From: Paracoccaceae bacterium
GTDB lineage: Bacteria > Pseudomonadota > Alphaproteobacteria > Rhodobacterales > Rhodobacteraceae
DNA: 37,564 bases
Direction: 5' to 3'
Assembly (NCBI GenBank): GCA_019090795.1
Contig: JAHRVG010000069.1
Coordinates: 1 to 37,564 of the forward strand
Shown: positions 9,515 through 25,102 of the stretch, one piece after another
How positions within the stretch are numbered: the first letter of the stretch is position 1
Layout of the letters: every line of letters begins with the position of its first letter
Notes under the pieces: model-generated
The model's input: only the letters and a program-made list of their open reading frames with translations
Told to the model about the DNA's origin: nothing
Databases searched by the model: none
Program-made: the position numbers and the translations under genes

Positions 9515-10155
9515 AGGTTCATCCCCTTACGGCCATAGGTCGCGCCGGTGTTGCCCCGCGACAAAAAGAAGGTAAAGGCGTGCATCAGGCGGCTGAAAGG
9601 AAAATAGATCAGCCAGACGTCCACCAACAGCATGTGCAAACCGCGCAGGAAGCTTTGGGATTCCTGCAAGGCAAAACACCCCGACAGCATCACCAGAAAC
9701 GTTAGCCACGTACCGATGTGATCGTCCCAGTCGGAAATCAGTCGCATCACCGGATCGGAAATCCGGCGCACCCAAAGCATGATCAGCCCGGCAAACGCGA
9801 TTTCTGCCGCAACGATAAAGCCCCAGCGCGGCATTTCCGGCAGGTTCACATTGATAAGGCGGTCCTGAATAAACGCAATGTGGGGGGCCGCGAACAGTAC
9901 CAGCACTAGCAGGGCAAGGTGGAAACCATAGCCTGCAATGATGTGCAGTGCGGTTCGGCGCGCAAATATCCCGCGCGGAAAGAAATGGCGCAGGTTGCCG
10001 ACCACAAAGCCCATGACGGCAGAGCCTTTGGGGGGGGATATGTCTTTCTTGCGACCAATGCGGATAATCCCGATTACCCGCCACAAAGCACCCAGCACGA
10101 AAATTGCGGACGCCAAAATAAACAACGGGCCTTCAACGAATTCAACAAAGCTCAT
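9511..10155 (-). CDS. NarI/DsrM-like membrane cytochrome b subunit
   Basis: This 214-residue integral membrane protein shows about five hydrophobic segments (for example 8-28, 68-88, 108-128, 150-170). Histidines lie in or next to helices (RHFFPRG, TALHIIAGYGFHLA, LHMLL, LMHAF) and could bind b-type hemes. The layout resembles NarI (nitrate reductase gamma) and the DsrM/HdrE/HmeC cytochromes that pair with CCG iron-sulfur proteins. No nitrate reductase catalytic genes are nearby, so the common name nitrate reductase gamma subunit would mislead. It overlaps fdhC by 4 bp upstream and the CCG gene by 4 bp downstream. Likely role: quinone-linked electron transfer between the membrane pool and the CCG subunit. 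Confidence 0.82.
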   Translation of the reverse strand: MSFVEFVEGPLFILASAIFVLGALWRVIGIIRIGRKKDISPPKGSAVMGFVVGNLRHFFPRGIFARRTALHIIAGYGFHLALLVLVLFAAPHIAFIQDRLINVNLPEMPRWGFIVAAEIAFAGLIMLWVRRISDPVMRLISDWDDHIGTWLTFLVMLSGCFALQESQSFLRGLHMLLVDVWLIYFPFSRLMHAFTFFLSRGNTGATYGRKGMNL

Positions 10156-11252
10156 GATGCATCCTCCGATGCCGGTTTTCCGGTTACTTCCTCATACCAC
10201 AGGTCATGATGTTCCTTGGCCCAGTTCTCATCGACTTCGCCCTTGAGCATCGAGTCGATTGAGCCTTCCATTCCGATTGTGCCCACATAGATATGGCCAA
10301 TGGCCACAGAAATAAGCGCCACCGCGCCAACCCCATGCAGGATAGTTGAGAGTTGCAGCAGTCGCAGGTCAGCGACCAACCACGGGAATTCCAGCGCAAT
10401 GCCGGTGATACTGATGACAGTGCCAATTAGCACGACCATCCAGAACCACGATTTTTCACCAAAGTTGAACTGCGAAGAACTGACATGACCACCAAACAAG
10501 CCGCCGAGCTTGAAAATCCATTTAAAATCCACAAGTTGAAAGAAATTGCCGCGCACAAACTTAATGAACATCCATACTAGCGCAATGATAAACAGCGGGC
10601 CGAACAGGTTGTGGCCTTGCAACGAGGCGCTTGTCAAAATCGAGTTCACCTCTTTTCCCAGATAGGGGGCAATAGCCAGCCGACCCAGTAGAATTATCAG
10701 GCCGGTGAATGCCAGAAGGATAAAGACGCAAGCCATAAACCAATGGGCGACACGCTGGGTCAGGGTGAAACGCGGCAGGGTTTTGCCGGACCGACCCGCA
10801 GAAATGGTCATTTTGCCGATGACCAGATGAAACACCAACAAGATCCCGATTACCCCGACGGGAAACCAACCGGCATATTTGCGGATATAGTTTTCGCGCA
10901 ACAACCGCCACTGCTGGCCGGTAGTTGTCATCGCCTGACCGGATTCGATTGCCGCCACAACATCCGCAGGATCACCGCCACGGTAAGCCCGCCAATAGTC
11001 GGACTGCGATTGCGCCCCCAGTGTATTAGGGGGGCCAGGGTCGGGACCAAATAGCGGCCCGCCTTCGGGTGCTGGGACATCACTGCCCGAAGGCAAAACC
11101 ACCTCGCCGCGTTGCCGTGCCATTATATTTTCAAGCGCTTGCGCCGCCTTTGCGTTCGCTTCGGAATTCGGGGCCGTTGTTTGTGCATGCGCAACGCCTA
11201 CGTTCAGCAGGCTCGCGAACAATACAAGGGCAAGTATCTGGCGCATCATCAT
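10152..11252 (-). CDS. fdhC: Formate dehydrogenase gamma subunit (cytochrome b556)
   Basis: A 366-residue membrane subunit that carries electrons from FdhB to quinone. It starts with a signal-like segment (about 1-23, ending AHA-Q). A hydrophilic, Pro/Gly-rich stretch of about 110 residues precedes four main membrane helices (about 127-147, 166-190, 215-237, 262-285, and a further one near 305-328). Histidines such as those in RVAHWFMA, SLQGHNLFG, LHGVGAVA and IGHIYVG are candidates for heme ligands, as in FdnI/FdoI. The N-terminal extension is longer than in E. coli FdnI (about 217 residues) but usual for the alphaproteobacterial type. It sits 93 bp after fdhB, a gap that holds a strong hairpin, and overlaps the NarI-like gene by 4 bp. 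Confidence 0.92.
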   Translation of the reverse strand: MMMRQILALVLFASLLNVGVAHAQTTAPNSEANAKAAQALENIMARQRGEVVLPSGSDVPAPEGGPLFGPDPGPPNTLGAQSQSDYWRAYRGGDPADVVAAIESGQAMTTTGQQWRLLRENYIRKYAGWFPVGVIGILLVFHLVIGKMTISAGRSGKTLPRFTLTQRVAHWFMACVFILLAFTGLIILLGRLAIAPYLGKEVNSILTSASLQGHNLFGPLFIIALVWMFIKFVRGNFFQLVDFKWIFKLGGLFGGHVSSSQFNFGEKSWFWMVVLIGTVISITGIALEFPWLVADLRLLQLSTILHGVGAVALISVAIGHIYVGTIGMEGSIDSMLKGEVDENWAKEHHDLWYEEVTGKPASEDAS

Positions 11253-11345: not shown

Positions 11346-11942
11346 TTAGTTTCCGGCTTTCTGGTTGTAAGCCGTTCCCCAGCCCCAAGCGCCAGAGCCA
11401 AAGCCGCGCGCAACAACGCGCTCGCGGTAGATGCCGGAAACAACGTCCCCGTCACCTGCCAGCAGAGCCTTGGTTGCGCACATTTCCGCACACAATGGCA
11501 ACTTACCTTCGGCAATACGGTTACGACCGTATTTCTGGAACTCGGCTTGTGAGTGATCCTCTTCAGGGCCACCCGCACAGAAGGTACATTTGTCCATCTT
11601 ACCGCGCGACCCAAAGTTTCCAGCCTGCGGATACTGTGGCGCACCGAACGGGCATGCGTAGAAACAGTAGCCACACCCGATGCACAAATCCTTGCTGTGC
11701 AAGACGATGCCATCGGCTGTTTGATAGAAACAGTCAGTTGGGCAAACGGCCATACACGGTGCGTCAGAGCAGTGCATACAAGCGATAGAAACCGAACGTT
11801 CACCCGGGCTGCCGTCACCGATGGTGACAACTTTACGCCGGTTGATGCCCCATGGGACTTCATGTTCGTTTTTACACGCCGTTACGCAGGCATTACATTC
11901 GATGCAACGTTCTGCATCACAGAGAAATTTTACTCGTGCCAT
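11346..11942 (-). CDS. fdhB: Formate dehydrogenase beta subunit (4 x [4Fe-4S])
   Basis: This 198-residue protein is the electron-transfer subunit of formate dehydrogenase. Four ferredoxin-type cysteine groups are visible: CDAERCIECNACVTAC, CMHCSDAPCMAVCP, CIGCGYCFYACP and CTFCAGG...CAEMCATKAL. This is the pattern of FdnH/FdoH-like subunits, here without the long C-terminal membrane anchor of the E. coli proteins. The start at ATG 11942 is chosen because AAGGAG lies at good distance upstream; an upstream in-frame ATG would overlap fdhA. It has no signal peptide, so export would be with the TAT-bearing FdhA. It lies 11 bases after the fdhA stop. Confidence 0.95.
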   Translation of the reverse strand: MARVKFLCDAERCIECNACVTACKNEHEVPWGINRRKVVTIGDGSPGERSVSIACMHCSDAPCMAVCPTDCFYQTADGIVLHSKDLCIGCGYCFYACPFGAPQYPQAGNFGSRGKMDKCTFCAGGPEEDHSQAEFQKYGRNRIAEGKLPLCAEMCATKALLAGDGDVVSGIYRERVVARGFGSGAWGWGTAYNQKAGN

Positions 11943-11953
11943 GTCTACGCTCC

Positions 11954-14848
11954 TTATGCTGCTGTGATTTTGCAAAGAGACGCCTTAGTCTCTTGCATTT
12001 GGGTGACGCTGTCATAGCCATAGGTCATCGCGGTGTTGGCGGATTCACCAAGCACATAGGGATCAGCGCCCTCGGGGTATTTATCCCTCAGGTCTTTGCC
12101 CTCAAAATGACCACCAAAGTGGAACGGCATAAAGGCAACACCTTCGCCAACGCGTTCCGTGACCATGGCCGCAACCTTGACCTTGGCACCTTCAGGCCCT
12201 TCGACCCAGACTTGCTGGCCATCCCGAATACCAATGTTATTGGCATCGCGGGTGTTCACCTCGACAAACATCTCTTGTTGCAGTTCTGCCAACCAAGGAT
12301 TGGAACGACTCTCGTCACCCCCGCCCTCGTATTCAACCAGACGACCGGATGTCAGGATCATTGGATAATCCTTGCTAAAGTCAACTTTCTGGATCGATTC
12401 ATACATGGTTGGCAAACGATAGGCCTGCTTATCCGCGTATGTTGGATAGTCTGCAACCAGATCACGCCGGTTGGTATAGAGCGGCTCGCGGTGTACGGGA
12501 ACCGGATCGGGGAATGTCCAGACAACGGCCCGCGCTTTGGCGTTACCGAATGGTGCACATTCATGGGCAATCGCCACCCGCTGGATACCGCCCGAGAGGT
12601 CGGTTTTCCAGTTGGTTTTGGGTCCTGCCACGGCGTCGATGGATGCACGTTCCTCGGCGGTCAGCTCATTATCCCAACCCAGATCCATCAGCATCTGCAT
12701 TGTGAACTCAGGATAACCATCCTGAATGTCGCTGTCTTTGGAGTAAACACCCTCAGCCAACAGGTTCTCACCATTGCGTTCCACTCCAAAACGGGCGCGG
12801 AAGGTCAGGCCACCTTTGGATACGGCTTTCGACATATCATAAAGGTTTGGCGTACCCGGATGACCCATTTCAGCGGTTCCCCAACAGGGCCAAGGCATAC
12901 CGTAGTATTCGCCATCATTCGGGCCACCAATGGCCTGAAGGGTGGTGCGGTCAAAGGTGTGCTGGTTGGCCATGTGCGATTTGATCCGCTCTGGCGAACA
13001 ACCGGTGTAACCGATGGTCCACATACCGCCGTTGAATTCGCGGGTAATATCCTCGATGTTCGGTTCATCCTCGGCGTCCATGCCGATGTTGCGGAAGAAA
13101 CGATCCGCCCAACCGAACTTCTTGGCAAATTTCGCCATGATGACGTGATCTGGCAGCGATTCAAACACTGGATCAACCACTTTATCACGCCACTGGAACG
13201 ACCGGTTGGACGCTGTCAACGAACCGCGACACTCAAACTGGGTAGAGGCAGGCAGCAGATAAACGCCATCGGTGCGATCATGTAGAACAGCGGAAACAGT
13301 TGGATACGGGTCAACCACGACAAGCATGTCGAGTTTCTCCATCGCCGTTTTCATTTCCTTACCGCGGGTCTGAGAGTTGGGCGCGTGGCCCCACAGAACC
13401 ATGGCCCGAACGTTGTCGGGCTGGTCAATGTTGTCCTTGTCTTCCAGAACGCCATCAATCCAGCGCGATACCGGAATGCCCTTGAGGTTCATCAACGACT
13501 TTTCTTTGCCATCTTTGCCTTTCAGGTTGTCAAAACGGGATTTCATCCAATCCAGATCTTCACCCCAAACACGTGACCAGTGCGCCCATGCACCAGCCGA
13601 GAGGCCATAATAGCCGGGCAGAGAGTGGGACAGCACGCACATATCGGTAGCGCCTTGCACGTTGTCGTGACCACGGAAGATGTTTGTACCACCGCCGGAT
13701 GTACCCATGTTGCCAAGGGCCAGCTGCAAGATGCAGTAAGCGCGGGTGTTGTTGTTACCCGTGGTGTGCTGTGTCCCCCCCATACACCAAATCAAGGTGC
13801 CTGGACGGTTGTTGGCCATGGTACGGGCAACCCGTTCCATTTGCGCACCCGGAACACCGGTTACGCGCTCGACTTCTTCTGGGTTCCAGTTTTTGACCTC
13901 GGCGCGGATTTCGTCCATACCGTACACGCGTGTACGGATGAATTCCTTGTCTTCCCAGCCGTTTTCAAAGATGTGCCACAAGAAGCCCCAGATCAGGGCA
14001 ACATCAGAACCCGGACGGATACGGACGAACTCATCCGCATGGGCTGCGGTACGTGTGAAACGTGGGTCGCAAACGATCAGAGAGGCGTTGTTCTGCTCTT
14101 TTGCTTTCATCAGGTGAAGCAGGGAAACAGGGTGCGCCTCGGCGGGGTTTCCGCCGATTACCAGGATCGCTTTGGAGTTGTGGATGTCGTTATAACTGTT
14201 GGTCATGGCGCCGTAGCCCCATGTGTTGGCAACGCCCGCAACAGTGGTCGAGTGACAAATCCGCGCCTGATGGTCCACGTTGTTGGAGCCCCAATAGGCA
14301 GCAAATTTGCGGAACAGGTAGGCCTGTTCATTGCTGTGCTTAGCGGAACCCAGCCAGTAAACGCTGTCCGGTCCGCTTTCGTCGCGGATGGTGTTCATCT
14401 TGTCGCCGATCTCGTCGATCGCTTGTTCCCAGGAAATGCGTTTCCACTCTCCGCCTTCTTTTTTCATCGGGTACTTCAGGCGGCGTTCGCCATGGGCATG
14501 TTCCCGCACCGAGGCACCTTTGGCACATTGGCCGCCCAGATTGAACGGGCTGTCATAGCCCGGCTCCTGGCCGACCCACACACCGTTATCCACCTCAGCG
14601 ATGATCGAGCAGCCCACCGAACAGTGGGTGCAAACTGATTTAATGGTATCAATAGCACCGTTCACGGCTGTAGCCGCAGATGCTTTGGTAACTGTCCCAC
14701 CGGTTGCCGTGATCGCGGCTAGGCCGCCAATGGCCAGACCTGATCCGCGTAAAAATGCACGCCGATCAACCGATTTTTCTGAAATAGTAGACAGGAGGCT
14801 TGTCCGCTGGGGGCGTCGCGCAACCCCGTTGGTTTTTTTCCTGAGCAT
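11954..14848 (-). CDS. fdhA: Formate dehydrogenase catalytic alpha subunit, cysteine type, TAT-exported
   Basis: The 964-residue catalytic subunit oxidises formate to CO2 at a molybdenum or tungsten bis-pterin site. A twin-arginine signal is at RRAFLRG (R29, R30) followed by a hydrophobic stretch to about residue 60, so the enzyme acts in the periplasm. A [4Fe-4S] site is formed by C73, C76, C80 and C108. The metal ligand is C198 in ARICHS, where E. coli FdnG has selenocysteine; the codon is TGT and no in-frame TGA is used. The downstream region carries the DMSO-reductase-fold domains and a C-terminal pterin-binding part (TSGRLVEYEGGG). The tupABC tungstate genes 7.7 kb away make tungsten plausible, but the sequence alone does not decide Mo or W. 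No fdhD gene is in the window. Confidence 0.96.
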   Translation of the reverse strand: MLRKKTNGVARRPQRTSLLSTISEKSVDRRAFLRGSGLAIGGLAAITATGGTVTKASAATAVNGAIDTIKSVCTHCSVGCSIIAEVDNGVWVGQEPGYDSPFNLGGQCAKGASVREHAHGERRLKYPMKKEGGEWKRISWEQAIDEIGDKMNTIRDESGPDSVYWLGSAKHSNEQAYLFRKFAAYWGSNNVDHQARICHSTTVAGVANTWGYGAMTNSYNDIHNSKAILVIGGNPAEAHPVSLLHLMKAKEQNNASLIVCDPRFTRTAAHADEFVRIRPGSDVALIWGFLWHIFENGWEDKEFIRTRVYGMDEIRAEVKNWNPEEVERVTGVPGAQMERVARTMANNRPGTLIWCMGGTQHTTGNNNTRAYCILQLALGNMGTSGGGTNIFRGHDNVQGATDMCVLSHSLPGYYGLSAGAWAHWSRVWGEDLDWMKSRFDNLKGKDGKEKSLMNLKGIPVSRWIDGVLEDKDNIDQPDNVRAMVLWGHAPNSQTRGKEMKTAMEKLDMLVVVDPYPTVSAVLHDRTDGVYLLPASTQFECRGSLTASNRSFQWRDKVVDPVFESLPDHVIMAKFAKKFGWADRFFRNIGMDAEDEPNIEDITREFNGGMWTIGYTGCSPERIKSHMANQHTFDRTTLQAIGGPNDGEYYGMPWPCWGTAEMGHPGTPNLYDMSKAVSKGGLTFRARFGVERNGENLLAEGVYSKDSDIQDGYPEFTMQMLMDLGWDNELTAEERASIDAVAGPKTNWKTDLSGGIQRVAIAHECAPFGNAKARAVVWTFPDPVPVHREPLYTNRRDLVADYPTYADKQAYRLPTMYESIQKVDFSKDYPMILTSGRLVEYEGGGDESRSNPWLAELQQEMFVEVNTRDANNIGIRDGQQVWVEGPEGAKVKVAAMVTERVGEGVAFMPFHFGGHFEGKDLRDKYPEGADPYVLGESANTAMTYGYDSVTQMQETKASLCKITAA

Positions 14849-15184: not shown

Positions 15185-15793
15185 TTAACCCGCATTCATC
15201 CGAAACGCTTCGCGCTCGATCTCGAGAAACGCACTCCCGGCAGCCCCTACAGATGCGTAAAAGACGGAATTCTTCGCGCCCTCCAGATCGGTAAAAAAGT
15301 GGCTGGCCCATGAGGCGATGTGTTTGTTAAAAAATGCAGTCTGGCGATCAAGGGGCACCAGTGCGCCAAAGCGCCCGGCAATCATGCCCGCCATCATCTC
15401 AAACAGGCTGGCGATATTATCCTCGGGTTCAAAGACGTTTTTCTCGCGCTCGATCCGCAAGCCCGCCATCTCCTTGCGCAGCGCCGCCAGTGGTTTCTCA
15501 TTGAGGAAACCAGTCAGATAAAAGCTGGCATAGGGCAGTAACTCGCCGCGCCCCAATCCAATGAACAGCGCGTTAAATTCGCTCTCGACGGCAGAGGGTT
15601 TGCTAATGGTCGCAACTCGGGCCATCGCGTTGATTGCCGCGCCCAAATCGCTGTCGTCTCCGCTCAGCGAGGCCGTCTGTTTCAACAACTCTTTGGACGG
15701 CGGCCCAGACAACAGCGCGCCCAAAAACCCGTAGAAATCCGCGCGCAATTTATCTTCGTCACTTGTTTGCATCTCTGTCGCCGTTACTGTCAT
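15185..15793 (-). CDS. TorD/DmsD-family molecular chaperone for formate dehydrogenase
   Basis: The 202-residue protein is mostly helical and has no signal or membrane segment. Features of the TorD/DmsD/NarJ superfamily are visible: an N-terminal LRADFYGFLGALLSGPPSKELL segment, ELLPYASFYLTGFLNEKPLAALRKEM, and the E-P-E-D type motif (FEPEDNIASLFEMMAGMI) that contacts TAT signals and cofactor-free enzyme. Such chaperones bind the TAT leader and guard cofactor insertion before export. The gene lies directly upstream of the TAT peptide and fdhA in the same direction, so FdhA is the likely client. It starts at ATG 15793, 15 bp after DUF3306. Confidence 0.88.
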   Translation of the reverse strand: MTVTATEMQTSDEDKLRADFYGFLGALLSGPPSKELLKQTASLSGDDSDLGAAINAMARVATISKPSAVESEFNALFIGLGRGELLPYASFYLTGFLNEKPLAALRKEMAGLRIEREKNVFEPEDNIASLFEMMAGMIAGRFGALVPLDRQTAFFNKHIASWASHFFTDLEGAKNSVFYASVGAAGSAFLEIEREAFRMNAG

Positions 15794-15808: not shown

Positions 15809-16393
15809 CTAATTCGCGAATGCAAACCGCATCCGGTGTTTCACCCCGGTTGGGGGCGTTTCCTGTTGTGGGCCCTGTTCTGGCTCCGAGCCTAGCTCAA
15901 CCTCCGACCCGTTACCTTGATCTTCCGCAAGCATTTCACCCACAGTCTGCTCTTGGGGCGCGTCTTGGACATCTTCGTCGGCCGCTTCTTGCTGCTTTGC
16001 CATCTCTTCCACATGGGCCAGCATTCCCTTGCCGACCTGATAGACTGTCTGGACAGACTCAAGCGCGCTGGTGGCAAGGGTGAAATCTTCGCCGTAATCC
16101 ACCAGATTATCGACATTCGCCAACACCGGATTGCTGAGCCACAGCTTGCGCAAGGCACGGCGGCGCAGGCGTTCGGGAACAGTGGCCTTCATAAAACCGC
16201 TAAAATCATCGCCAAGGCCCATTTCGTCAGGGTCTTGCAAATCCAGCTCGGCCAATATTTCCGCGTCCGTCTTTTCCTCTAGCGCGGCGCGCTCCTCGCA
16301 AACAACAGCTGCCACTTGCGCGCGTTCATCCGCCTCGGCCTCTGCCAGCACAGCGGCCTTGCGGCGCGCCCACATATCCATGCGCCCGCTCAA
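15809..16393 (-). CDS. DUF3306 domain protein
   Basis: A 194-residue acidic protein without signal or membrane helix. The N-terminus WARRKAAVLAEAEADERA and the central LWLSNPVLANVDNLVDYGEDFT motif are typical of DUF3306, a family found beside formate dehydrogenase genes. The C-terminal third is low-complexity, rich in Glu and Gln, and likely disordered. No function is established. It overlaps the upstream DUF3305 gene by 4 bp (ATGA), so the two should be made together. Context supports a role in formate dehydrogenase assembly or regulation. Confidence 0.85.
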   Translation of the reverse strand: MSGRMDMWARRKAAVLAEAEADERAQVAAVVCEERAALEEKTDAEILAELDLQDPDEMGLGDDFSGFMKATVPERLRRRALRKLWLSNPVLANVDNLVDYGEDFTLATSALESVQTVYQVGKGMLAHVEEMAKQQEAADEDVQDAPQEQTVGEMLAEDQGNGSEVELGSEPEQGPQQETPPTGVKHRMRFAFAN

Positions 16394-16956
16394 TGGATTG
16401 GCTCGTTCTTGGGGCGGGTCGGGGAGCGGTACACATCACTCATTTGCGAAATACGGGCATCGCCAATACCGTCCTCTACCCGATCAATCCGCTTTTTGTC
16501 ACGCTTGCGCTTAACAAAGCGTTCTTCCTCATAATGGGCATCCACAAATTCACGCACCCACGCAATCAACGGTTCTGACATTGGCACCAGATCAACGATT
16601 TCCTCGCCGCTGTCAGCATAATCCTGCGCATCATAGGGCGAGGCCGTGGCCAGCAGAACCTCGACAGCGTGTGGTGCATCAGGATCAGTCGCCTCGCGCA
16701 GCACCACATAGATTGAGGGCACCCGCGTCGACAGGCCGGTCAGATAGGCTTCGGCATCTGTGCGCCATAGTTCGAGATCAACCGTCGCCGCGTGGTATTC
16801 CACCGCATCCCCGTCACGGCGCAATTCGCGCCAGCTCTCTTGCGCAGCCCCCGGCATTATCGCAACCGCCTGCCAATGCCACTTGGCCCAGCGGGTAACG
16901 CCCGGTGTCTTGCGAACCACAATGCCCAATGGCATGGAGATACTGCGGGATTGCAT
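16390..16956 (-). CDS. DUF3305 domain protein
   Basis: This 188-residue cytoplasmic protein opens with MPLGIVVRKTPGVTRWAKWHWQAVAIMPGA, the recognisable start of DUF3305, followed by YHAATVDLELWRTDAEAYLTGL and SVYVVLRE-like segments (here PSIYVVLREA). A start at M8 (base 16935) is equally possible. The charged C-terminal tail (EERFVKRKRDKKRIDRVEDG) may be flexible. It is the first gene of the minus-strand fdh run and is transcribed from the divergent region that contains the paired palindromes. Function is unknown; its pairing with DUF3306 in fdh loci is a known pattern. Confidence 0.85.
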   Translation of the reverse strand: MQSRSISMPLGIVVRKTPGVTRWAKWHWQAVAIMPGAAQESWRELRRDGDAVEYHAATVDLELWRTDAEAYLTGLSTRVPSIYVVLREATDPDAPHAVEVLLATASPYDAQDYADSGEEIVDLVPMSEPLIAWVREFVDAHYEEERFVKRKRDKKRIDRVEDGIGDARISQMSDVYRSPTRPKNEPIH

Positions 16957-17295: not shown

Positions 17296-19254
17296 ATGCC
17301 TAAACGACTGATATTATGTGATTGTTCTGGCAGCCAGACGATTGACAAAAAGGCCTTATCGGACAATTGCGGGTTGGCATGTTCGCGGGTTTACTCCGAC
17401 TTATGCACCACAGAAATCGGCGAGGCGGCGCGCGAAATTGGCAAAGGGGATGCCCTGATTGCCTGCCTTCAAGAGCAACAATTGTTTGAAGAAACTGGCG
17501 AGGAAATCGGGACGGCCCCCGCCGGGTTCGTCGATATACGAGACCGCGCCGGATGGTCTGATGATGGCGCAAAAAGCGCTCCTAAAATGGCGGCGCTGAT
17601 CAGTGACAGCCTGCTGAATGCCCCCGCAGCCAAGGCGCTGGATATCTATTCGGAGGGGCGTTGCCTGATCCTTGGCACTGCCGAAATCGCCCTGCCTGCA
17701 GCACAGCAGCTGGCCGAAGTTCTGAGCGTCACAGTCTTGCTGAAAGCCGCGCTGGACCCGCCACTGGATCGCAGTTTCGACGTCGTTGTCGGACAGTTGC
17801 GACAGGCCAGTGGCACGCTCGGAAATTTCAGCCTGAGCATCGACGCCCTGCAACAATTTGCAACGGGCGGGCGCGGCGCACCTGCTTTGAGCGCGCCGCG
17901 CGATAACGCACAATCTGACTGCGATATCATTCTGGATCTGCGCGGCGGCACCGCCTTATTCCCTGCCCCCCAAAAACGCGATGGATACCTGCGTTGTGAC
18001 CCCGGTGATCCCCGTGCCGTAGCAGCCGCAATTTTTGAAGCAGCACAGTTTGTTGGCAGCTTTGAGAAGCCGTTTTACATTCGCCTTGAGGAGCATCTTT
18101 GCGCCCATTCCCGTGCAGAAATCACTGGCTGTTCCAAATGCCTCGACATCTGCCCGACCTCAGCCATTTCACCAAATGGTGAGCATGTTTCAATTGATCC
18201 GGCGATCTGCGCGGGCTGTGGCTCCTGCGCGGCACTTTGCCCCTCAGGTGCGATCACCTATGACGCCCCGCCAACCGCTTTTATCTTCAAACGTATTGAA
18301 AACCTTACAAAAACCTATCTCAAGGCAGGTGGCAAAGCGCCTCGGCTGCTGGTGCATGACAATGACTTCGGCAGCGAAATGATCTCCCTCTCGGCGCGTT
18401 TTGGCAGCGGCTTGCCCAGCAATGTGATCCCGATGGAAATCAACGCCCTTTCCAGTTTTGGTCATGCAGAAATGCTGGCAGCCCTAGCCTGCGGTTTCAC
18501 ACAAGTAGACATATTGTTAAGTCCGAAAACCGAACGCGAAACGCTGGAAAACGAAAGCGCCCTTGCAATGGCAATTTCAGGCGATGGACGGATTCGTCTG
18601 CTGGATATTGGCGACCCTGATGCACTGTCGCAAATGCTGTTTGATCACACGGAAATACCGCGCAAGATCGAACCAATTCTGCCCATCGGCAACCGCCGTC
18701 AAATTGCCAGATTGGCGGCAATTTCCCTAAACGACACACGCGATGCCCCCCTCCCCTTGCCTGCAAATGCCCCTTACGGCGCTGTCATTGTCGACACGGA
18801 TGCCTGCACTCTCTGCCTGTCCTGCGCAGCACTTTGCCCCACCGGCGCACTGGCGGATAACCCCGACAAACCGCAACTGCGTTTCACCGAGGATGCCTGT
18901 TTACAATGTGGACTTTGCACCCGCGTTTGCCCGGAAAATGCCATCACCCTGAAACCACAATTCGATTTATCGGATCAGGTATTTCACCAGCAAGTCATGC
19001 ATGAGGAAGAACCCTTTGCCTGCATCGAGTGCGGTGCCTTGTTTGGGGTGAAATCCACAGTCGACAAAATCACCGAAAAACTGGCAGGCAAGCACCCGAT
19101 GTTCGCCACCAGCGATGCCGCCAAAATGATCCAGATGTGCGACCATTGCCGCGTTGCTGCACAATACAAAGTCTCTGACAACCCGTTTCAGGGTGGAGAG
19201 CGCCCGCGCGTTGTGACGACCGAAGATTATTTTGGCAAACGCAAGGATCACTGA
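17296..19254 (+). CDS. Large multi-cluster 4Fe-4S protein of the formate dehydrogenase island
   Basis: The 652-residue soluble protein has a modular layout. The N-terminus carries C8, C10, C25, C29 and C37. Two [4Fe-4S] motifs occur at 279-286 (CSKCLDIC, with C269 or the following Cys-Pro group) and 305-315 (CAGCGSCAALC), then two more at 504-514 (CTLCLSCAALC) and 535-545 (CLQCGLCTRVC). Between the pairs, residues about 348-410 form a domain that recalls the MvhD/HdrA-associated fold but lacks its cysteines. The C-terminus has two CxxC pairs (C576/C579 and C615/C618) that could bind zinc or a cluster. No signal peptide is seen, so it acts in the cytoplasm. Its role is unknown; a redox donor to a maturation or reductase system is likely. 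Confidence 0.85.
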   Translation: MPKRLILCDCSGSQTIDKKALSDNCGLACSRVYSDLCTTEIGEAAREIGKGDALIACLQEQQLFEETGEEIGTAPAGFVDIRDRAGWSDDGAKSAPKMAALISDSLLNAPAAKALDIYSEGRCLILGTAEIALPAAQQLAEVLSVTVLLKAALDPPLDRSFDVVVGQLRQASGTLGNFSLSIDALQQFATGGRGAPALSAPRDNAQSDCDIILDLRGGTALFPAPQKRDGYLRCDPGDPRAVAAAIFEAAQFVGSFEKPFYIRLEEHLCAHSRAEITGCSKCLDICPTSAISPNGEHVSIDPAICAGCGSCAALCPSGAITYDAPPTAFIFKRIENLTKTYLKAGGKAPRLLVHDNDFGSEMISLSARFGSGLPSNVIPMEINALSSFGHAEMLAALACGFTQVDILLSPKTERETLENESALAMAISGDGRIRLLDIGDPDALSQMLFDHTEIPRKIEPILPIGNRRQIARLAAISLNDTRDAPLPLPANAPYGAVIVDTDACTLCLSCAALCPTGALADNPDKPQLRFTEDACLQCGLCTRVCPENAITLKPQFDLSDQVFHQQVMHEEEPFACIECGALFGVKSTVDKITEKLAGKHPMFATSDAAKMIQMCDHCRVAAQYKVSDNPFQGGERPRVVTTEDYFGKRKDH

Positions 19255-19988
19255 TGCACAATCGGTGCCCCCAGATCAGCGGGTTCAATCGTCGCTACAA
19301 AAGCGAGGATGGAATCGAGTTCATCAACGCTGATTTCCAGCGGCACGATCATAGGCGGCAGGTGATCCGCAAAGGCTGGGGTAACACCGGTAATCTGGGT
19401 GAACGACGGATGCGGGCGCAGGGTAAAGAACGCCTCGAAGCGATGCTGCCAATCGGGAAACGTGCGCATCAGGGCAAAGGACGGCGTCGAGCCAACGCCA
19501 TTCATCCGGTTCTTGGGACCAATCACATGGCAACGCCCGCAATTTCGAAACGACAAGGCCTCACCGGCGACAATATCTCCAGTAAACGTGACCTCCGGTA
19601 CCACTTTGGCAAGGTTCGCGGCCCCGGTGAACACCTGCACCCCCTCGTGCCTGAAAGCCGTAATCGTACGCTGGCCGATTTCAGAGCCAAGCCAATCCAC
19701 AAGGCGCGCAGCCTTTGGCCCCTCAACCATTTTTTTGACATAGAAAACCTGATCACCGCGCAAAATGACCGGCAGGCCATCGCCCGACCCGAGGCGCACA
19801 TCCGCTTCGCTCGCCTTGACCAGATCAATACCCACCGCAGTTTTCAGCGAAAAACGGGGCAGCAAATACTTCATCAAACCGCTTTCAACCAACACGGGAG
19901 CAACCGCCAGACGCAGTTTTCGATCTTGCGCAACCGCGCCACCAGCCCAGACGAAAGCCAGCAAAAGAGGCACTATCCAGCGTTTCAT
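19248..19988 (-). CDS. Shortened TupA-like binding domain fused to cytochrome c
   Basis: A 246-residue periplasmic protein with a signal peptide (about 1-21, ending AVA-Q). Residues about 24-80 resemble the start of TupA, the tungstate-binding protein encoded at 22552 (compare LRLAVAPVLVESGLMKYLLP with IRLAVTTSFHNSGLSDVLLP). Residues about 90-125 (GPKAARLVDWLGSEIGQRTITAF...VFTG) resemble the last helices of such binding proteins; the middle of the fold is missing. A cytochrome c follows: CGRCH near residue 149 and a candidate Met ligand in PPMIVPLEIS, then a helix typical of the cytochrome c end. It is convergent with the ferredoxin gene (7-bp overlap). Heme binding is clear. Loss of tungstate binding is likely because TTS...NSG is not kept. 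Function is unknown. Confidence 0.85.
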   Translation of the reverse strand: MKRWIVPLLLAFVWAGGAVAQDRKLRLAVAPVLVESGLMKYLLPRFSLKTAVGIDLVKASEADVRLGSGDGLPVILRGDQVFYVKKMVEGPKAARLVDWLGSEIGQRTITAFRHEGVQVFTGAANLAKVVPEVTFTGDIVAGEALSFRNCGRCHVIGPKNRMNGVGSTPSFALMRTFPDWQHRFEAFFTLRPHPSFTQITGVTPAFADHLPPMIVPLEISVDELDSILAFVATIEPADLGAPIVHQ

Positions 19989-20061
19989 TTCCCACCCTTT
20001 GTTGTTTCAGCAAACCTAAAGGGCTGGCAATTCCCCCGTCAATCCCTTTGAAAGGAAGATC

Positions 20062-20262
20062 ATGAGTGAAGACTTTAACATGAGCATGCGCAAGTTTCTC
20101 AAACAGGTGGGTGTCACCTCGCAGCAAGCCATTGAGGGTGCGATGCGGGACGCCGGAACCGACGCTACCACTGGCAAGCAATATGAGGCCAAAGTGGTAC
20201 TAACCATTGACGGGATCGCGCTTGAACATATTGTAAGCGGCAAAATCAGTGGAATGGAATAA
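20062..20262 (+). CDS. DUF6494-like small protein
   Basis: This 66-residue protein (MSEDFNMSMRKFLKQVGVTSQQAIEGAMRDAGTD...) has an N-terminal helical part and a short strand-rich C-terminus (AKVVLTIDGIALEHIVSGKI). It fits the small family DUF6494 found next to ApbC-type ATPases in alphaproteobacteria. AAAGGAAG lies at good distance before ATG 20062. The stop codon is directly followed by the apbC start, so the two are likely translated together and may interact. No function is known. Confidence 0.8.
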   Translation: MSEDFNMSMRKFLKQVGVTSQQAIEGAMRDAGTDATTGKQYEAKVVLTIDGIALEHIVSGKISGME

Positions 20263-21330
20263 ATGACAGTCAGCAGAGCAAACGTATTGGCCGCCTTGGG
20301 CCAGATTACGGATCCCAAAAGCGGCGGCGACATCGTTCAGGCAGGGCTGGTAAAGGCGCTGATGATTGAGGGCGGTGCCGTACGGTTTGTAATCGAGATA
20401 GATCCCGCGGCCAGCACCGTGATGGAACCGGTGCGTGCCGATGCCGAAGCCGCTATCAGGGCGCTCGACGGGGTAGACACCGTCTCTGCCGTGCTGACGG
20501 CGCATAGTGCGACCAAAGCCCCCCCTGACCTGAAATCCCATGGCAAGCCCAAACCACAGGGACCGCAAAAAATCCCCGGCGTCGAGAAAATCATCGCCAT
20601 TGCATCCGGGAAGGGCGGGGTCGGGAAATCCACTGTTTCCGCCAATCTGGCCGTTGCATTGGCCGCCGAGGGCCTGCGCGTTGGCCTGCTGGATGCCGAT
20701 GTATTCGGCCCTTCACAACCCCGCATGATGGGGGTGTCCGGAAGGCCGTCATCGCCAGACGGAAAAACCATTTTACCGCTGCGAAATCATGGTGTTACCG
20801 TCATGTCCATGGGCCTGATGACCCGCGAGGACGAGGCCGTTGTCTGGCGCGGACCAATGTTGATGGGGGCTTTGCAGCAAATGCTAAATCAGGTGCAGTG
20901 GGGTGCTTTGGATGTACTTCTTGTAGATCTGCCGCCGGGCACTGGTGATGTGCAAATGACGCTGGCGCAAAAGGCCGAGGTAGACGGCGCAATCATCGTT
21001 TCCACGCCACAGGACGTGGCGCTGATTGATGCGCGCAAAGGCATTGATATGTTCCGAAAACTGGGTACGCCGATCCTAGGGATGATCGAAAATATGTCTA
21101 CACACATCTGTTCCAATTGCGGTCATGAGGAGCACACTTTTGGCCATGGCGGCGTTGCAGCCGAAGCCGCAAAAATGGAGGTGCCGCTGCTTGCCGAGCT
21201 GCCGTTGCACGTGGATATTCGTCTTGCAGCCGACGGCGGAGCACCGATTGTTGTGTCCAAACCGGATTCCGCCCAAGCACAATCGTTTCGCAGCTTGGCG
21301 CGCCGCCTGATCAATGATGGCATCCTATGA
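20263..21330 (+). CDS. apbC: ApbC/Mrp-type P-loop ATPase (iron-sulfur cluster carrier)
   Basis: The 355-residue protein has an N-terminal MIP18/DUF59-like domain (about 5-80), a linker rich in Lys and Pro, and a deviant Walker A P-loop GKGGVGKST (116-124) of the Mrp/NBP35 family. Other nucleotide-binding segments (LLDADVFGPSQ, DLPPGTGDVQMTL) follow. The C-terminal CSNCGHEE motif carries the two cysteines that hold a bridging [4Fe-4S] cluster between subunits. Family members assemble or transfer iron-sulfur clusters. Placement between fdh-linked genes suggests that it serves the several iron-sulfur proteins of the island, but it could be the general housekeeping copy. It overlaps the next gene by 4 bp. 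Confidence 0.93.
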   Translation: MTVSRANVLAALGQITDPKSGGDIVQAGLVKALMIEGGAVRFVIEIDPAASTVMEPVRADAEAAIRALDGVDTVSAVLTAHSATKAPPDLKSHGKPKPQGPQKIPGVEKIIAIASGKGGVGKSTVSANLAVALAAEGLRVGLLDADVFGPSQPRMMGVSGRPSSPDGKTILPLRNHGVTVMSMGLMTREDEAVVWRGPMLMGALQQMLNQVQWGALDVLLVDLPPGTGDVQMTLAQKAEVDGAIIVSTPQDVALIDARKGIDMFRKLGTPILGMIENMSTHICSNCGHEEHTFGHGGVAAEAAKMEVPLLAELPLHVDIRLAADGGAPIVVSKPDSAQAQSFRSLARRLINDGIL

Positions 21331-22046
21331 CCGACACCCCTTTTGACACCGCCGAACCGCTAAGCTTACCCCCCCTGTTTCAGGGGCAGGCGGTAAGTGG
21401 AGCAACCGACCCGTTTGAAAAGGCTTGCGCGCTGGCAGCTTTGGGTTGTAATTCAGGCATGCTGGTCCACAGCGTCACCCCCGACCGGCTGCGCGCCGCC
21501 ATCGTATTTGCGCCGGAAATCCCGCTAGAGCAGGCGATGGCGATGTTTTGCACTTGCGGTGTCGGCTTTCAAAATGCGCTTGGTGCGCTGGCGCCGCCAG
21601 AGGTAGCGGTGTATCTGAAATGGCAGGGCGATATCGTGATTAACGGCGGCACTTCGGGTCGTATTCGGGCGGCGGCTTCTAGCACTGATCCTGCCGCTGA
21701 ACCGGATTGGCTGGTGATCGGGCTGGATTTATTATTGTTACCGGAAACCGAGGCTGATGCGGGAGAAACACCGGATCAAACCTCGCTTTATCAGGAGGGC
21801 TGCGGTGATATTTCCCCACTGCGCCTGTTAGAAAGCTGGGCACGCCACACGCTGGTCTGGGTGAACCGTTTTGGCGACGATGGCGCGACACCGCTGCACA
21901 CGGAATGGCGCGGAATTGCCCATGGCATCGGCCAAGAGACCCCTGCAGGCACCTTCATGGGCGTTGACGAAAACTTTGGCATGTTGCTGCGGCAGGGCGA
22001 AAACACCCGCCTAATCCCGCTCACCTCCCTTTTGGAAAACGGATGA
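21327..22046 (+). CDS. Biotin/lipoate ligase-family protein
   Basis: A 239-residue protein of the biotin/lipoate A/B protein ligase fold. Residues about 10-130 show the shortened ligase core (LPPLFQGQAVSGATDPFEKACALAALGC... and VYLKWQGDIVINGGTSGRIRAA, where the GRIRAA segment replaces the substrate lysine region of standard ligases). A C-terminal domain (about 175-239, WRGIAHGIGQ...GTFMGVDENFGMLLR) matches the DUF4444 type. The classical GRGRxGR motif of BirA is not kept, so normal biotin ligation is doubtful. It overlaps apbC by 4 bp and is followed 4 bp later by the DUF6505-like gene. Its part in the formate dehydrogenase island is unknown. Confidence 0.78.
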   Translation: MTDTPFDTAEPLSLPPLFQGQAVSGATDPFEKACALAALGCNSGMLVHSVTPDRLRAAIVFAPEIPLEQAMAMFCTCGVGFQNALGALAPPEVAVYLKWQGDIVINGGTSGRIRAAASSTDPAAEPDWLVIGLDLLLLPETEADAGETPDQTSLYQEGCGDISPLRLLESWARHTLVWVNRFGDDGATPLHTEWRGIAHGIGQETPAGTFMGVDENFGMLLRQGENTRLIPLTSLLENG

Positions 22047-22050
22047 CCCT

Positions 22051-22530
22051 ATGAAACTGGCCCGCGCAATCCACTTCGACGAAAGCGACACGCAAGTGTT
22101 TCACAAACCTGCGCGCACGGGCGAGTGGGCAATCAGCGGTGGTTTTGAATTTTCGAACTGGGCAGAAGCCGACCTGAATGGCAAAGCCCGCCAAGCCTTC
22201 GCCAATGGCTGGCTAGGAGTGGAAACCTTTGGCCGCGTGACCTTTGTCGCAGCGACCCAGATAGAGCCTGCCGAGCTGGAGGTACTGGCCGACACATTGG
22301 CCCAGCATTTCGTGACCATCTACGGCGCGCCCTCCCTGGAACAGGCGCGGGTGGTGGCGTTGGATGAACTGAAGCACATGGTGGAACTGTGCGATGAGCA
22401 GGACGCCAACACCCTGTTGGCCGTACAGCGCGAATTGACCGATGCAGGCGTTAAGGAATCCTTTCGCATGATCAAAAGCCCCGATGCCGAACTGGAAATG
22501 CTGGCGGTGCATGCGGATTTGGAAGAATAG
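22051..22530 (+). CDS. DUF6505-like protein
   Basis: This 159-residue soluble acidic protein starts MKLARAIHFDESDTQVFHKPARTGEWAISGGFEFSNW. It matches what I know of DUF6505, found in Rhodobacterales beside the ligase-family gene. The second half is helical (LDELKHMVELCDEQDANTLLAVQRELTDAGVKESF). No catalytic motif, signal or membrane segment is visible. It is the last gene of the plus-strand group and converges with tupA. The family assignment is from memory and moderately sure; function is unknown. Confidence 0.72.
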   Translation: MKLARAIHFDESDTQVFHKPARTGEWAISGGFEFSNWAEADLNGKARQAFANGWLGVETFGRVTFVAATQIEPAELEVLADTLAQHFVTIYGAPSLEQARVVALDELKHMVELCDEQDANTLLAVQRELTDAGVKESFRMIKSPDAELEMLAVHADLEE

Positions 22531-22551: not shown

Positions 22552-23361
22552 TTACTTGGCGTTAAAGGTAAAAAGCAACTCACCGCCTATTTTGTAGTCA
22601 GAAATCAGCTTTTCCGCCTTTGGACCCGCCAACCAGTTCTCCAGCTTCACCGCCAATTCCTTTTTCACATGCGGGTGCAGCTCTGGGTTCACCGGCAGAT
22701 AGGCGTATTGATTGAACAGCACTGGATCACCGGAAAACAGCAATGTCAGATCTCCCTTGTTGCCGAATTTCAGCCAGCTGGCGCGATCTGCCATAATGTA
22801 GGCATTCATACCGCTAGCGGTGTTGAGCGATGCCCCCATTCCCGCACCAACCGCGCGATACCACCCTTGTGTCGGCACATCCCCAACACCCTTTACGCCC
22901 TGCCAAAGCATCGCCTCTTTCTTGTGCGTGCCACTATCATCACCCCGGCTTACAAACGAGGCCTTGGCCCCAGCAATTTTCTGTAACGCCTCAACGGCTG
23001 TTTTTACGCCCGCAATGCCCGCCGGATCAGCACTTGGGCCGATCAGTACAAAATCGTTAAACATGATTTCCCGGCGATGAGTACCGAAACCACCCTCCAG
23101 AAACGCCAGTTCTGCCTTGCGAGAATGCACCAATATCGCATCCACATCCCCAGCCTTGCCCAGACGCAGCGCCTGTCCAGTACCCACTACCAGCAGCTTC
23201 ACCTCCAGATCAAGGTCGGCCTTGATCTCGGGCAGCAAAACATCAGACAGGCCAGAATTGTGGAACGAGGTCGTCACCGCCAGTCTGATGTCGTCGGCCA
23301 TAGCGATCTGGCCGTACACAAGGATCGCCAAAACGGCGGCGAGAGTTTTTTTCAGGTTCAT
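22552..23361 (-). CDS. tupA: Tungstate ABC transporter substrate-binding protein
   Basis: The 269-residue periplasmic protein has a signal peptide (about 1-22, ending AMA-D). Tungstate-binding TupA features are visible: TTSFHNSGLSDVLLP (residues about 29-43, normally TTS-T-x-x-SGL), VGTGQALRLGKAGDVDAILVHS, FNDFVLIGP and FVSRGDDSGTHKKE, the segments that surround the oxyanion. TupA binds tungstate with high selectivity over molybdate; the same fold serves WtpA and ModA, so molybdate cannot be excluded from sequence alone. The start overlaps the tupC stop by 4 bp. The gene order tupB-tupC-tupA in one direction forms a complete importer. Confidence 0.93.
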   Translation of the reverse strand: MNLKKTLAAVLAILVYGQIAMADDIRLAVTTSFHNSGLSDVLLPEIKADLDLEVKLLVVGTGQALRLGKAGDVDAILVHSRKAELAFLEGGFGTHRREIMFNDFVLIGPSADPAGIAGVKTAVEALQKIAGAKASFVSRGDDSGTHKKEAMLWQGVKGVGDVPTQGWYRAVGAGMGASLNTASGMNAYIMADRASWLKFGNKGDLTLLFSGDPVLFNQYAYLPVNPELHPHVKKELAVKLENWLAGPKAEKLISDYKIGGELLFTFNAK

Positions 23362-24158
23362 TCAACAATGTCTCCGCTGATAAACGCCGCCGCTTGCGGT
23401 GTTGTCGGCCCGCTAAAAAAGGCAGTCGCGGGGCCGGTTTCATGAACGCAGCCTCCATACATAAACACAACATCGCTGGCCAGACGTCGCGCCTGCCCCA
23501 TGTCATGCGTTGCCATGACAAGGCGGGTTCCCTCCGCCTGCGCTTGGCGTAATATGGTTTCGATTTCGCGGGTGGCACGGCCATCTAGGTTGGCACAAGG
23601 TTCATCCAGAAACAATATATCCGGCCCACTGATCAGGGCGCGCGCCAGTGACAGCTTTTGTTTTTCCCCCCCTGACAAAACCGGAGCCGGACGATCCAGC
23701 GCATGCCCCAACCCGACCCGTTCAGCCCAATCCGTGGCCTTGGTGCGGGCAGTTTTTTTATCCACCCCGCGCAGACGCAGCGGATAGGCAATGCTGTCGA
23801 CAACAATGCGGCGCATCATGATCGGGGTTTGAAATACATACGACTGGCGCACCCGTGCCTGCGCATCAGGCAAGCCACAGGTAACGGTGCCACCGGAAAT
23901 GCGCTGAAGGCCATGCATTAGCCGCAACAACGTCGTTTTGCCCGACCCATTTGGCCCCATCACAATGGTAAATCCCTGCGGCCCTATGGTCAGGTTAATC
24001 GGCCCGACAATGGTTTTGCCCCGGATTTTCGCGATAGCCCCCGTCAGGGTAAGCGGCAAAATTGTATTGTGCACAGTTTTTTGCGCCGTTTCTGATTGAA
24101 GCAATAAACTGCGTTCCCAGTTGGCTTTCCGCGGGGGAAAAGGTTGGTTTCGTTGCAT
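23358..24158 (-). CDS. tupC: Tungstate ABC transporter ATP-binding protein
   Basis: An ABC ATPase of 266 residues with Walker A GPNGSGKTT (about 72-80), signature LSGGEKQ, Walker B LFLDEP and the switch histidine in MATHD. It powers the TupB permease. The start is uncertain: ATG 24158 gives a 30-residue lead that relatives do not usually have, while GTG 24074 would start at VHNTILPLTLTGA, a typical family N-terminus. The 184-bp gap to tupB is unusually wide for such an operon and holds only a weak inverted repeat (24251-24282). Confidence 0.92.
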   Translation of the reverse strand: MQRNQPFPPRKANWERSLLLQSETAQKTVHNTILPLTLTGAIAKIRGKTIVGPINLTIGPQGFTIVMGPNGSGKTTLLRLMHGLQRISGGTVTCGLPDAQARVRQSYVFQTPIMMRRIVVDSIAYPLRLRGVDKKTARTKATDWAERVGLGHALDRPAPVLSGGEKQKLSLARALISGPDILFLDEPCANLDGRATREIETILRQAQAEGTRLVMATHDMGQARRLASDVVFMYGGCVHETGPATAFFSGPTTPQAAAFISGDIVE

Positions 24159-24342: not shown

Positions 24343-25047
24343 TTACCAAACGCTGGCCCGTTCGGTTCGTGACAGACTGTGAATTGTCAGGTTCACCAGC
24401 ACCGCCAGCGCGATCAAAACAAACCCCAATCCCATGGCAAAGGCAAAGTTACCCTTGCCGGTTTCCAGCGAAATCGCGGTGGTCAGCACACGGGTGGAAT
24501 GGTCGATATTGCCCCCCACAATCATGATTGCACCCACCTCTCCGATGCCTCGACCAAAGCCTGCCAGCATCGCCGTCAGCAGCGCGCGCCGTCCGTCCCA
24601 CAGCAGCGCCGCAATACGCTGGCGGCGGGTCGCACTCAGTGAGATTAGCAGATCATGGTATTCCGCCCATAAATCACGGATGGTCTGGTGCGAAATAGAG
24701 GCAATCAGCGGTGTAATAATGATTACTTGCGCAATTATCATCGCCGTTGGCGTAAACAGTAAGTCCAGCACGCCAAACGGCCCGGCACGCGACAACAGCA
24801 TGTAAACGACCAACCCGACCACCACGGGCGGCAAGCCCATCAGCGCATTCAACACAGCGATTGTATGACGGCGGAAGCGAAACCGGTTCACCACCAGCCA
24901 TGCCCCCAGCGGCAAACCAATAGCCGAGGCGATGACAACCGCGCTCAGCGTAACCCGCAGGGAAAGGGCAACGATTTCCAGCAAATCGGGATCCAGCGAA
25001 AAGATCAGACGCCCAGCCTCGGCCAAACCTTGGGTGATTTCATTCAT
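24343..25047 (-). CDS. tupB: Tungstate ABC transporter permease
   Basis: A membrane protein of 234 residues with about five to six hydrophobic helices (for example 20-45, 60-80, 90-110, 185-205). The EAA-type cytoplasmic loop (EYHDLLISLSATRRQRIAALLWDGRRALLTAMLAGFGRGIGEVGAIMIVGGN) couples to TupC. The pattern and length fit TupB. ATG 25047 is preferred over a TTG 12 bp upstream because MNEITQGLAEAGRLIF is the usual start region. It is the first gene of the operon; upstream lies a perfect inverted repeat at 25103-25121. Confidence 0.92.
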   Translation of the reverse strand: MNEITQGLAEAGRLIFSLDPDLLEIVALSLRVTLSAVVIASAIGLPLGAWLVVNRFRFRRHTIAVLNALMGLPPVVVGLVVYMLLSRAGPFGVLDLLFTPTAMIIAQVIIITPLIASISHQTIRDLWAEYHDLLISLSATRRQRIAALLWDGRRALLTAMLAGFGRGIGEVGAIMIVGGNIDHSTRVLTTAISLETGKGNFAFAMGLGFVLIALAVLVNLTIHSLSRTERASVW

Positions 25048-25102
25048 GGGCGGGCACAATCAAACAGCGGTGGATTATCAAAGGTCATTACAACAGATTA
25101 TC

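Follow-up and report, generated by a model that had tools for sequence, protein, structure and literature searches.

In Methylacidiphilum, according to an excerpt of PMC8498564, the cytochrome XoxG is fused to the binding protein XoxJ, and this fusion (XoxGJ, or cytochrome cGJ) is the electron acceptor of XoxF. Partial text of PMC7391723 describes XoxJ as a periplasmic binding protein required for XoxF-dependent growth, and a passage in PMC12997753 proposes that XoxJ binds immature methanol dehydrogenase. We analyzed a stretch of 37,564 nucleotides from a Paracoccaceae bacterium (assembly GCA_019090795.1, contig JAHRVG010000069.1; this whole stretch is called the window). It encodes a fusion protein that almost certainly consists of a signal-like start, the first lobe of a protein of the tungstate-binding TupA type, and a one-heme cytochrome c. 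The gene is located among the genes for a tungsten- or molybdenum-dependent (W/Mo) formate dehydrogenase (Fdh). As far as the excerpts describe XoxGJ, both proteins join a binding-protein fold and a cytochrome c in one chain beside a periplasmic dehydrogenase, and in both systems the cytochromes occur with and without the binding-protein part. The components differ: XoxJ and a quinoprotein methanol dehydrogenase there, one TupA-type lobe and a W/Mo Fdh here. The two are likened by architecture, not by sequence. In the window protein the lobe comes first and the cytochrome second. By this analogy, the fusion would be an independent parallel of XoxGJ, built from one half of a binding protein that belongs to another lineage.

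Three further groups of described proteins are related to its parts. With TupA (NF041772; structures 5my5, 3lr1, and 3muq) the fusion shares the fold of lobe 1, both end sequences, and the residues G37, P44, F46, W99, and F120; it differs in having neither lobe 2 nor the TTS and GDxSGTH motifs, in the added cytochrome c domain, and in that tup genes are mostly not nearby. The stand-alone short cytochromes of Fdh loci in other Alphaproteobacteria (locus L196 in genome G293, locus L202 in genome G304) share the heme domain with its CXXCH, TPSF, and PH motifs, but have no TupA lobe. The L196 cytochrome lies in the same locus as the fusion does elsewhere, and that of L202 lies beside Fdh and tup genes. 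Finally, cytochromes of the PF00034 type share CXXCH, and nine more distant cytochromes with a PHxxM motif share CXXCH and the PH pair; the methionine of PHxxM is replaced by phenylalanine, valine, or tyrosine in the fusion family. The elements of the window protein are as follows (counts out of 89 refer to the family set defined below).

19248..19988, minus strand: the fusion protein, 246 amino acids plus stop, from the open reading frame and its translation
19926..19988, minus strand: predicted signal peptide, residues 1-21; a hydrophobic helix (residues 5-18) followed by AVAQ in the model, with a putative cleavage site
19611..19925, minus strand: TupA lobe-1 domain, residues 22-126 (about 105 residues), from the two-block TupA match, AlphaFold, Foldseek, and PDB profile matches
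19893..19901, minus strand: residues 30-32, the place of the TupA oxyanion motif TTS, which is lost (motif counts)
19842..19862, minus strand: residues 43-49, LPRFSLK, in which P44, R45, and K49 are invariant (89/89)
19260..19580, minus strand: one-heme cytochrome c domain, residues 137-243, by Pfam Cytochrom_C; also found as a stand-alone protein elsewhere
19527..19541, minus strand: heme-attachment motif CGRCH, residues 150-154; C150, C153, and H154 are present in 89/89
19401..19412, minus strand: residues 193-196, HPSF in the window protein; H193 is invariant, and residue 196 is Phe, Val, or Tyr

A preliminary description of this DNA, made from the sequence alone, had reported the open reading frame with its CGRCH motif, and both were confirmed. 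A linker joins the lobe domain (22-126) to the heme domain (137-243). A signal-peptide-like start was also seen by eye in the 20 sequences of relatives that were displayed, and the fusion protein is probably exported to the periplasm.

One draw of 198 Rhodobacteraceae genomes from 197 genera was searched for the fusion and for TupA, with all candidates scored. The fusion search matched 76 of the 198 genomes at E≤1e-5. Two of these (G004 and G054) contain only the heme domain, and both domains are present in 74, that is, in 74 of the 197 genera sampled. A contig scan of named genomes contributed 30 loci, including Ruegeria, Sulfitobacter, and Tateyamaria. For wider draws, the first seven (class) or six (phylum) candidates per genome, of up to 84, were scored, and the counts are lower bounds: among 385 genomes of the class, full-length proteins were present in at least five of the same family and at least two of one other family (G561 and G484), with heme-only relatives in other families; among 398 genomes of the phylum, partly the same ones, at least seven full-length matches were obtained, all within the family.

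The locus set comprises 106 loci with a cytochrome match (75 genome stretches, 30 named contigs, and the window), of which 104 are two-domain. The start rule was passed by 101 of the 106, and 88 sequences remained after an 85% identity filter; together with the window protein these form the 89 members of set A1. Outside this set are two two-domain loci with no ATG in range (L094 and L135), two heme-only loci (L164 and L165), and a duplicate row for the window. Set A3 contains 84 of the 89 after the exclusion of five long-lobe rows, and set A2 contains 29 of 30 near-type TupAs. The TupA set consists of 84 loci with 80 distinct sequences; it includes 30 near-type and 20 far-type Rhodobacteraceae TupAs from the TupA search, and most of the remaining ones were found with the fusion profile itself, so that the set leans towards the fusion. 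The two nearest relatives of the window protein in set A1 are 57-71% identical to it. The protein was annotated as hypothetical in four of the five plasmid records with visible names, and no description of this fusion was found in the open PMC literature, a search that left most subscription journals outside its coverage. The fusion is real, conserved, and mostly unannotated.

The preliminary description had also held that the N-terminal part matches both ends of the TupA encoded in the window, that the middle of the fold is gone, and that TTS is lost. All three statements were borne out by the comparisons that follow. BLASTP against the window TupA aligned residues 1-76 of the fusion (E 7e-4, in a stretch that is partly signal peptide) and residues 47-121 with the C-terminus of TupA (E 0.002). 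The NCBIfam TupA model NF041772 weakly matched residues 92-125 at model positions 230-263 of 266 (E 0.018), and 16 of the 89 family members matched it at E≤0.01 (best 1.7e-5). A profile-profile comparison aligned the N-terminal part alone, signal peptide included (probability 90). When the genome of the window was searched with the lobe profile, the fusion protein itself was the sole match and the local TupA was not found. Taken alone, the link of the lobe to the window's particular TupA is weak. The single-sequence tests are weak, and these matters were settled by the comparison of families of relatives.

The lobe-domain family profile gave a two-block match, to the N- and the C-terminus, in all 80 distinct TupAs (E 3e-18 to 4e-5), with 121-168 TupA residues (median 159) between the blocks. 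The blocks span residues 24-70 and 231-267 of the window TupA. Its residues 71-230 are replaced by about 16 residues in the fusion protein, from which lobe 2, approximately 160 TupA residues, is absent. The full-length family profile also matched both ends of TupAs in other families (e.g., in genomes G254 and G488). In a search of 177,635 PDB sequences with the profile of the N-terminal domain, the best four matches were TupA or TupA-related (3muq, 5my5, 3cvg, and 3lr1); further matches included a maltose-binding chain (E 0.24), the one binding protein found that is not TupA-related, and two unrelated chains (E 0.015 and 0.088). The best PDB relatives of the window TupA's own family are 3muq, 3lr1, and 5my5. 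Chance similarity to TupA was ruled out by the two-block match in 80/80 TupAs and the specificity of the PDB search.

AlphaFold modeled the lobe domain alone with a predicted local distance difference test (pLDDT) of 96.6 and a predicted template modeling score (pTM) of 0.87, and no second lobe was found among the predicted structural elements, either in the whole protein or in the domain alone. The best Foldseek match of the lobe in the PDB was TupA 5my5 (E 4.9e-4, probability 1.00, template modeling score 0.69 by query length), followed by 3muq; effector domains of LysR came next with weaker scores, yet ahead of TupA 3lr1 and 3kn3. The match to 5my5 was the only one at E≤0.001. Its overall root-mean-square deviation is high (11.9 over 249 columns), probably from an alignment that spans the missing lobe. 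The possibility that the lobe is some generic domain of binding proteins, of LysR type or another, was rejected: Foldseek ranks such folds after 5my5 and 3muq, and the profile finds TupA-related binding proteins. An unrelated fold is thus not indicated, since sequence profiles and fold search both place the domain in TupA.

The domain is not a TupA in the full sense. The lobe-1 fold and the end sequences are present, and the second lobe and both motifs are absent: TTS was found in 0/89 fusion proteins versus 80/80 TupAs, and GDxSGTH in 0/89 versus 69/80. We take these two motifs of TupA to have an anion-binding role. With lobe 2 and the anion-binding motifs gone, the lobe should not bind tungstate in the manner of TupA.

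The lobe was compared with the heme domain with respect to divergence and selection. Mean pairwise identity is 56% for the heme domain and 38% for the lobe. In 23 close pairs, which are not independent of one another, the lobe has a median ratio of nonsynonymous to synonymous substitution rates (dN/dS) of 0.13, with no value above 1, and the heme domain has a median of 0.019. The medians for 416 distant-genus pairs (lobe 0.63, heme domain 0.42, lobe maximum 1.48) are saturated and were set aside. The lobe and the heme domain are both under purifying selection. A pseudogene or decaying remnant was rejected, as there was no internal stop in 77 placed matches and dN/dS is low in close pairs; because of this selection, the term remnant in the preliminary description is misleading.

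P44, R45, K49, and W99 are invariant in the 89 fusion proteins. At the position of R45, arginine is found in 6/80 TupAs, and at that of K49, lysine is found in 24/80. To judge from these counts, R45 and K49 were fixed anew in the fusion family. P44 and W99 are inherited from TupA. Such conservation and selection mark a domain that serves a purpose in its own right: a two-lobe binding protein has been reduced to a single lobe, which selection retains for a function other than transport.

The descent of the lobe from the neighboring tupA, also proposed in the preliminary description, could not be upheld. A phylogeny from 86 aligned columns united all 89 lobes in a single clade (support 0.90). 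The branch between this clade and the window TupA type has a support of 0.996, and the remaining TupA types are on the same side of it as the lobes. In similarity to the lobe profile, the window TupA ranks 79th of 80 TupAs. On both counts the window's tupA was rejected as the parent of the lobe. Because the alignment is short, the branches are long, and the rooting is arbitrary, the conclusion is limited to the neighboring tupA not being shown to be the parent.

The heme domain carries CxRCH in 89/89 family members. Pfam Cytochrom_C (PF00034) matched 43 of the 89 at E≤0.01 (best 2.2e-5); the window protein scored 14.9 bits, under the gathering score of 21.3. H193 (89/89) is the sole invariant histidine besides the one in CXXCH. 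There is no invariant methionine; M162 is present in 67/89. Position 196, three residues after H193, is phenylalanine in 85, valine in three, tyrosine in one, and methionine in none, and four members have no methionine anywhere after CXXCH. A methionine at such a position is the usual distal ligand in class I cytochromes. Inspection by eye of 14 heme-only relatives revealed the same histidine and no methionine at that place; in more distant cytochromes (including L187, L185, and L260-L263), PHxxM was present in 9/9. This branch has therefore lost the methionine at the usual ligand place, and its heme would be either His/His-ligated through H193 or five-coordinate. Ligation by methionine cannot be general, since residue 196 is never methionine and four of the 89 have none after CXXCH. 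H193 is a candidate ligand only; its conservation is not decisive because the 9/9 distant relatives keep the same histidine beside the methionine. The cytochromes c of the methionine-less branch may form a functional group of their own.

The genes around the fusion gene in the window are listed in the order of their coordinates.

10152..11252, minus strand: Fdh gamma, cytochrome b (PF01292)
11346..11975, minus strand: Fdh beta (4Fe-4S) subunit, by cysteine motifs and place; the start of the open reading frame is uncertain
11954..14848, minus strand: Fdh alpha, FdhA (TIGR01591, E 2.6e-144, under the curated cutoff), with a twin-arginine-like leader read from the sequence
15185..15793, minus strand: TorD/NarJ-type chaperone (PF02613)
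15809..16393, minus strand: DUF3306 protein (Pfam PF11748)
16390..16956, minus strand: DUF3305 protein of the Fdh cluster (Pfam PF11749)
17296..19254, plus strand: polyferredoxin-like 4Fe-4S protein, whose gene meets the fusion gene tail-to-tail and overlaps it by 7 bp
20062..20262, plus strand: DUF6494 protein (PF20104), the divergent neighbor, 73 bp from the fusion gene
20263..21330, plus strand: Mrp/NUBPL-type ATPase (PF10609)
21327..22046, plus strand: LplA/BirA-like ligase (PF16917)
22051..22530, plus strand: DUF6505 protein (PF20115)
22552..23361, minus strand: TupA, the full two-lobe protein used for comparison (NF041772, E 1.2e-55, under the cutoff)
23358..24158, minus strand: TupC-like ABC ATPase, by position and conservation with tupA/tupB
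24343..25059, minus strand: TupB-like permease (NF041773, E 3.1e-50, under the cutoff)

The genes of the Fdh cluster follow a single order where they are present. Of the 106 loci, the polyferredoxin, DUF3305, and DUF3306 genes are present in 102, TorD in 101, FdhA in 99, Mrp in 100, the LplA-like ligase in 101, DUF6505 in 99, and an open reading frame for Fdh beta in 94. The four loci without the polyferredoxin are two contig fragments, in which Mrp, LplA, and DUF6505 are still present, and two heme-only proteins. All two-domain loci (104/104) carry genes of the Fdh/polyferredoxin/Mrp cluster, two of them being contig fragments with the Mrp side only, and the two full-length loci from the other family (L206 and L207) are also within this cluster. 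The fusion gene is opposed to both of its neighbors, tail-to-tail with the polyferredoxin gene and divergent from the DUF6494 gene. The tail-to-tail overlap (19248-19254 in the window) is exactly 7 bp in 73/99 loci, which is unusually constant for opposed genes. A scan of 19900-20150 for promoters and terminators found nothing.

The tight link to formate dehydrogenase that had been proposed for this gene therefore stands, and among the loci examined the two-domain protein was never found away from the Fdh cluster; its heme-only relatives were. A joint occurrence with fdhA and tupABC, for which a survey had been suggested, was found for the Fdh cluster. It was not found for a tup neighborhood: tupA is nearby in 28/106 loci, though all 74 two-domain genomes have one, and a constant tupABC neighborhood was rejected. 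FdhA (E≤1e-200; up to four candidates per genome scored, so that counts are lower bounds) was detected in at least 97 of the 198 genomes, and tupA is present in 97/97 of these versus 41/101 of the others. At least 71 of the 74 two-domain genomes contain this FdhA. Of the three with no match, one (G069, locus L097) holds a partial FdhA in its stretch, and in the other two the fetched contigs stop short of where the gene would lie. The supply of tungstate thus accompanies this Fdh.

We favor, at slightly less than an even chance, the explanation that the fusion is the exported one-heme cytochrome c of a periplasmic, membrane-anchored W/Mo Fdh, where it would take part in electron transfer with its lobe as a docking module. 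The removal of lobe 2 and the anion motifs would have left a small folded module. This lobe would dock the cytochrome on its partner, either the Fdh or a membrane redox protein, with the heme positioned beside it. Periplasmic electron transfer with the Fdh is suggested by the CXXCH motif, the signal-like start, and the Fdh neighborhood; export of the Fdh itself is suggested by the leader of FdhA. A docking surface is the best reading of the lobe because a domain without ligand motifs is still selected and its arginine is newly fixed. From these features we infer the docking, the electron transfer with Fdh, and the direction of flow. If the lobe docks the cytochrome on Fdh, marine bacteria that oxidize formate would have a second outlet for the electrons. 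The system would then parallel that of methanol dehydrogenase and would suggest a general way in which binding proteins turn into modules of redox partners. A more far-reaching version, which we consider doubtful, is that a transporter binding protein, shortened to one lobe, has come to serve in partner recognition and connects a cytochrome c with a non-standard, methionine-less heme to a tungsten Fdh. Besides quinone, the enzyme would then have a cytochrome as a direct outlet in the periplasm, and the pairing of binding protein and cytochrome known from lanthanide methanol dehydrogenase would have been invented a second time, independently.

Several observations weigh against a role as the electron carrier of Fdh. 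The Fdh has its own outlet through cytochrome b (to quinone), and a cytochrome c is not obviously needed. The loss of the methionine ligand fits a sensing heme as well as an electron carrier. In the AlphaFold model of the whole protein (pLDDT 91.9, pTM 0.65), the relative placement of lobe and heme domain is uncertain. The fusion is a part-time companion of this Fdh, since 26 of the 97 FdhA-positive genomes are without it (24 with no match, and two with heme-only proteins elsewhere); in five of the 24 only a more distant FdhA, 58-61% identical, is present. In 10 of the 18 fetched loci from no-match genomes, the fusion gene is simply absent and the locus continues without it, the polyferredoxin and Mrp frames being 3-274 bp apart (658 bp in one) versus 1008 bp in the window. 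The lobe is dispensable in at least one relative, as the same locus in G293 (L196) encodes the cytochrome without it. Outside Fdh loci, heme-only relatives are encoded in L164, L165, L201, and L203.

The lobe might instead hold partly assembled FdhA while the heme senses or sets the redox state during assembly, in which case the fusion would be a maturation or activation factor of the Fdh. The richness of the locus in accessory genes (TorD, DUF3305, DUF3306, the Mrp ATPase, and the LplA-like ligase) is consistent with this, as is the divergent arrangement of the fusion gene and the DUF6494-Mrp-LplA-DUF6505 genes across 73 bp in the window; in addition, a passage of PMC12997753 proposes that XoxJ/MxaJ bind the apo-enzyme. 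However, the heme domain is better conserved than the lobe and also occurs alone, and the accessory cluster is kept in the 10 of 18 fetched loci of FdhA-positive genomes in which the fusion is absent. We consider a maturation factor unlikely.

Heme-only forms inside and outside the locus, and the faster evolution of the lobe, would also fit a lobe that merely aids the folding or solubility of an ordinary cytochrome c with a partner other than the Fdh, the gene order then reflecting inheritance of a large cluster. Some heme-only relatives are near other genes, such as that of L201, which has a xanthine-dehydrogenase-type Mo enzyme about 2-5 kb away. Such an appendage would not be expected to keep P44, R45, K49, and W99 invariant in 89/89, with R45 matched by arginine in so few TupAs, and the position in the locus is kept in 104/104 two-domain loci, with the exact 7-bp overlap in 73/99. 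This makes the appendage a rather unlikely explanation for the lobe.

A sensor or regulator is improbable. In this reading the methionine-less heme would react to a small ligand or to the redox state and the lobe would relay the signal, perhaps through contact with the TupB permease that adjusts the uptake of tungstate. In its favor, the lobe is TupA-derived, tupA is present in 74/74 two-domain genomes, residue 196 is never methionine, and four of the 89 members have none after CXXCH. Against it, tupA is found in 97/97 FdhA-positive genomes with or without the fusion, so that Fdh explains the link; tupA is nearby in only about a quarter of the loci; the lobe is far from the local TupA in both rank and tree; and, as binding proteins contact the permease with both lobes, a single lobe would miss half of the usual contact.

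Further observations concern the short cytochromes and the neighboring genes. In L202 (G304), L197 (G499), and L199 (G576), all from other Alphaproteobacteria, a stand-alone cytochrome and a full tupA are located within 2 kb, so that counterparts of both parts of the fusion adjoin closely there. In L201, the heme-only relative (9341-9721) lies close to a pair of xanthine-dehydrogenase-type 2Fe-2S and molybdopterin proteins (region 9341-14272), and because of this proximity the short cytochrome family may serve other Mo enzymes too. An association of DUF3305/DUF3306 with fdhGHI operons has already been published (described in a portion of PMC4464133). The DUF3305 protein of the window matches the tail part of proteins in which MobA is fused to DUF3305 (NF011058 positions 221-371, E 8e-25), hinting at a role in the handling of the molybdopterin cofactor. 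A nitrate-reductase-gamma-like cytochrome b gene (9511-10155) follows the Fdh genes; it was found in 4/106 loci, many stretches ending earlier. In the region 20062-22530, the Mrp-type ATPase, the LplA-like ligase, and DUF6505 travel with the Fdh locus (DUF6494 was not counted). The combination of a lipoate/biotin-type ligase and an Fe-S ATPase suggests an undescribed accessory pathway of the Fdh.

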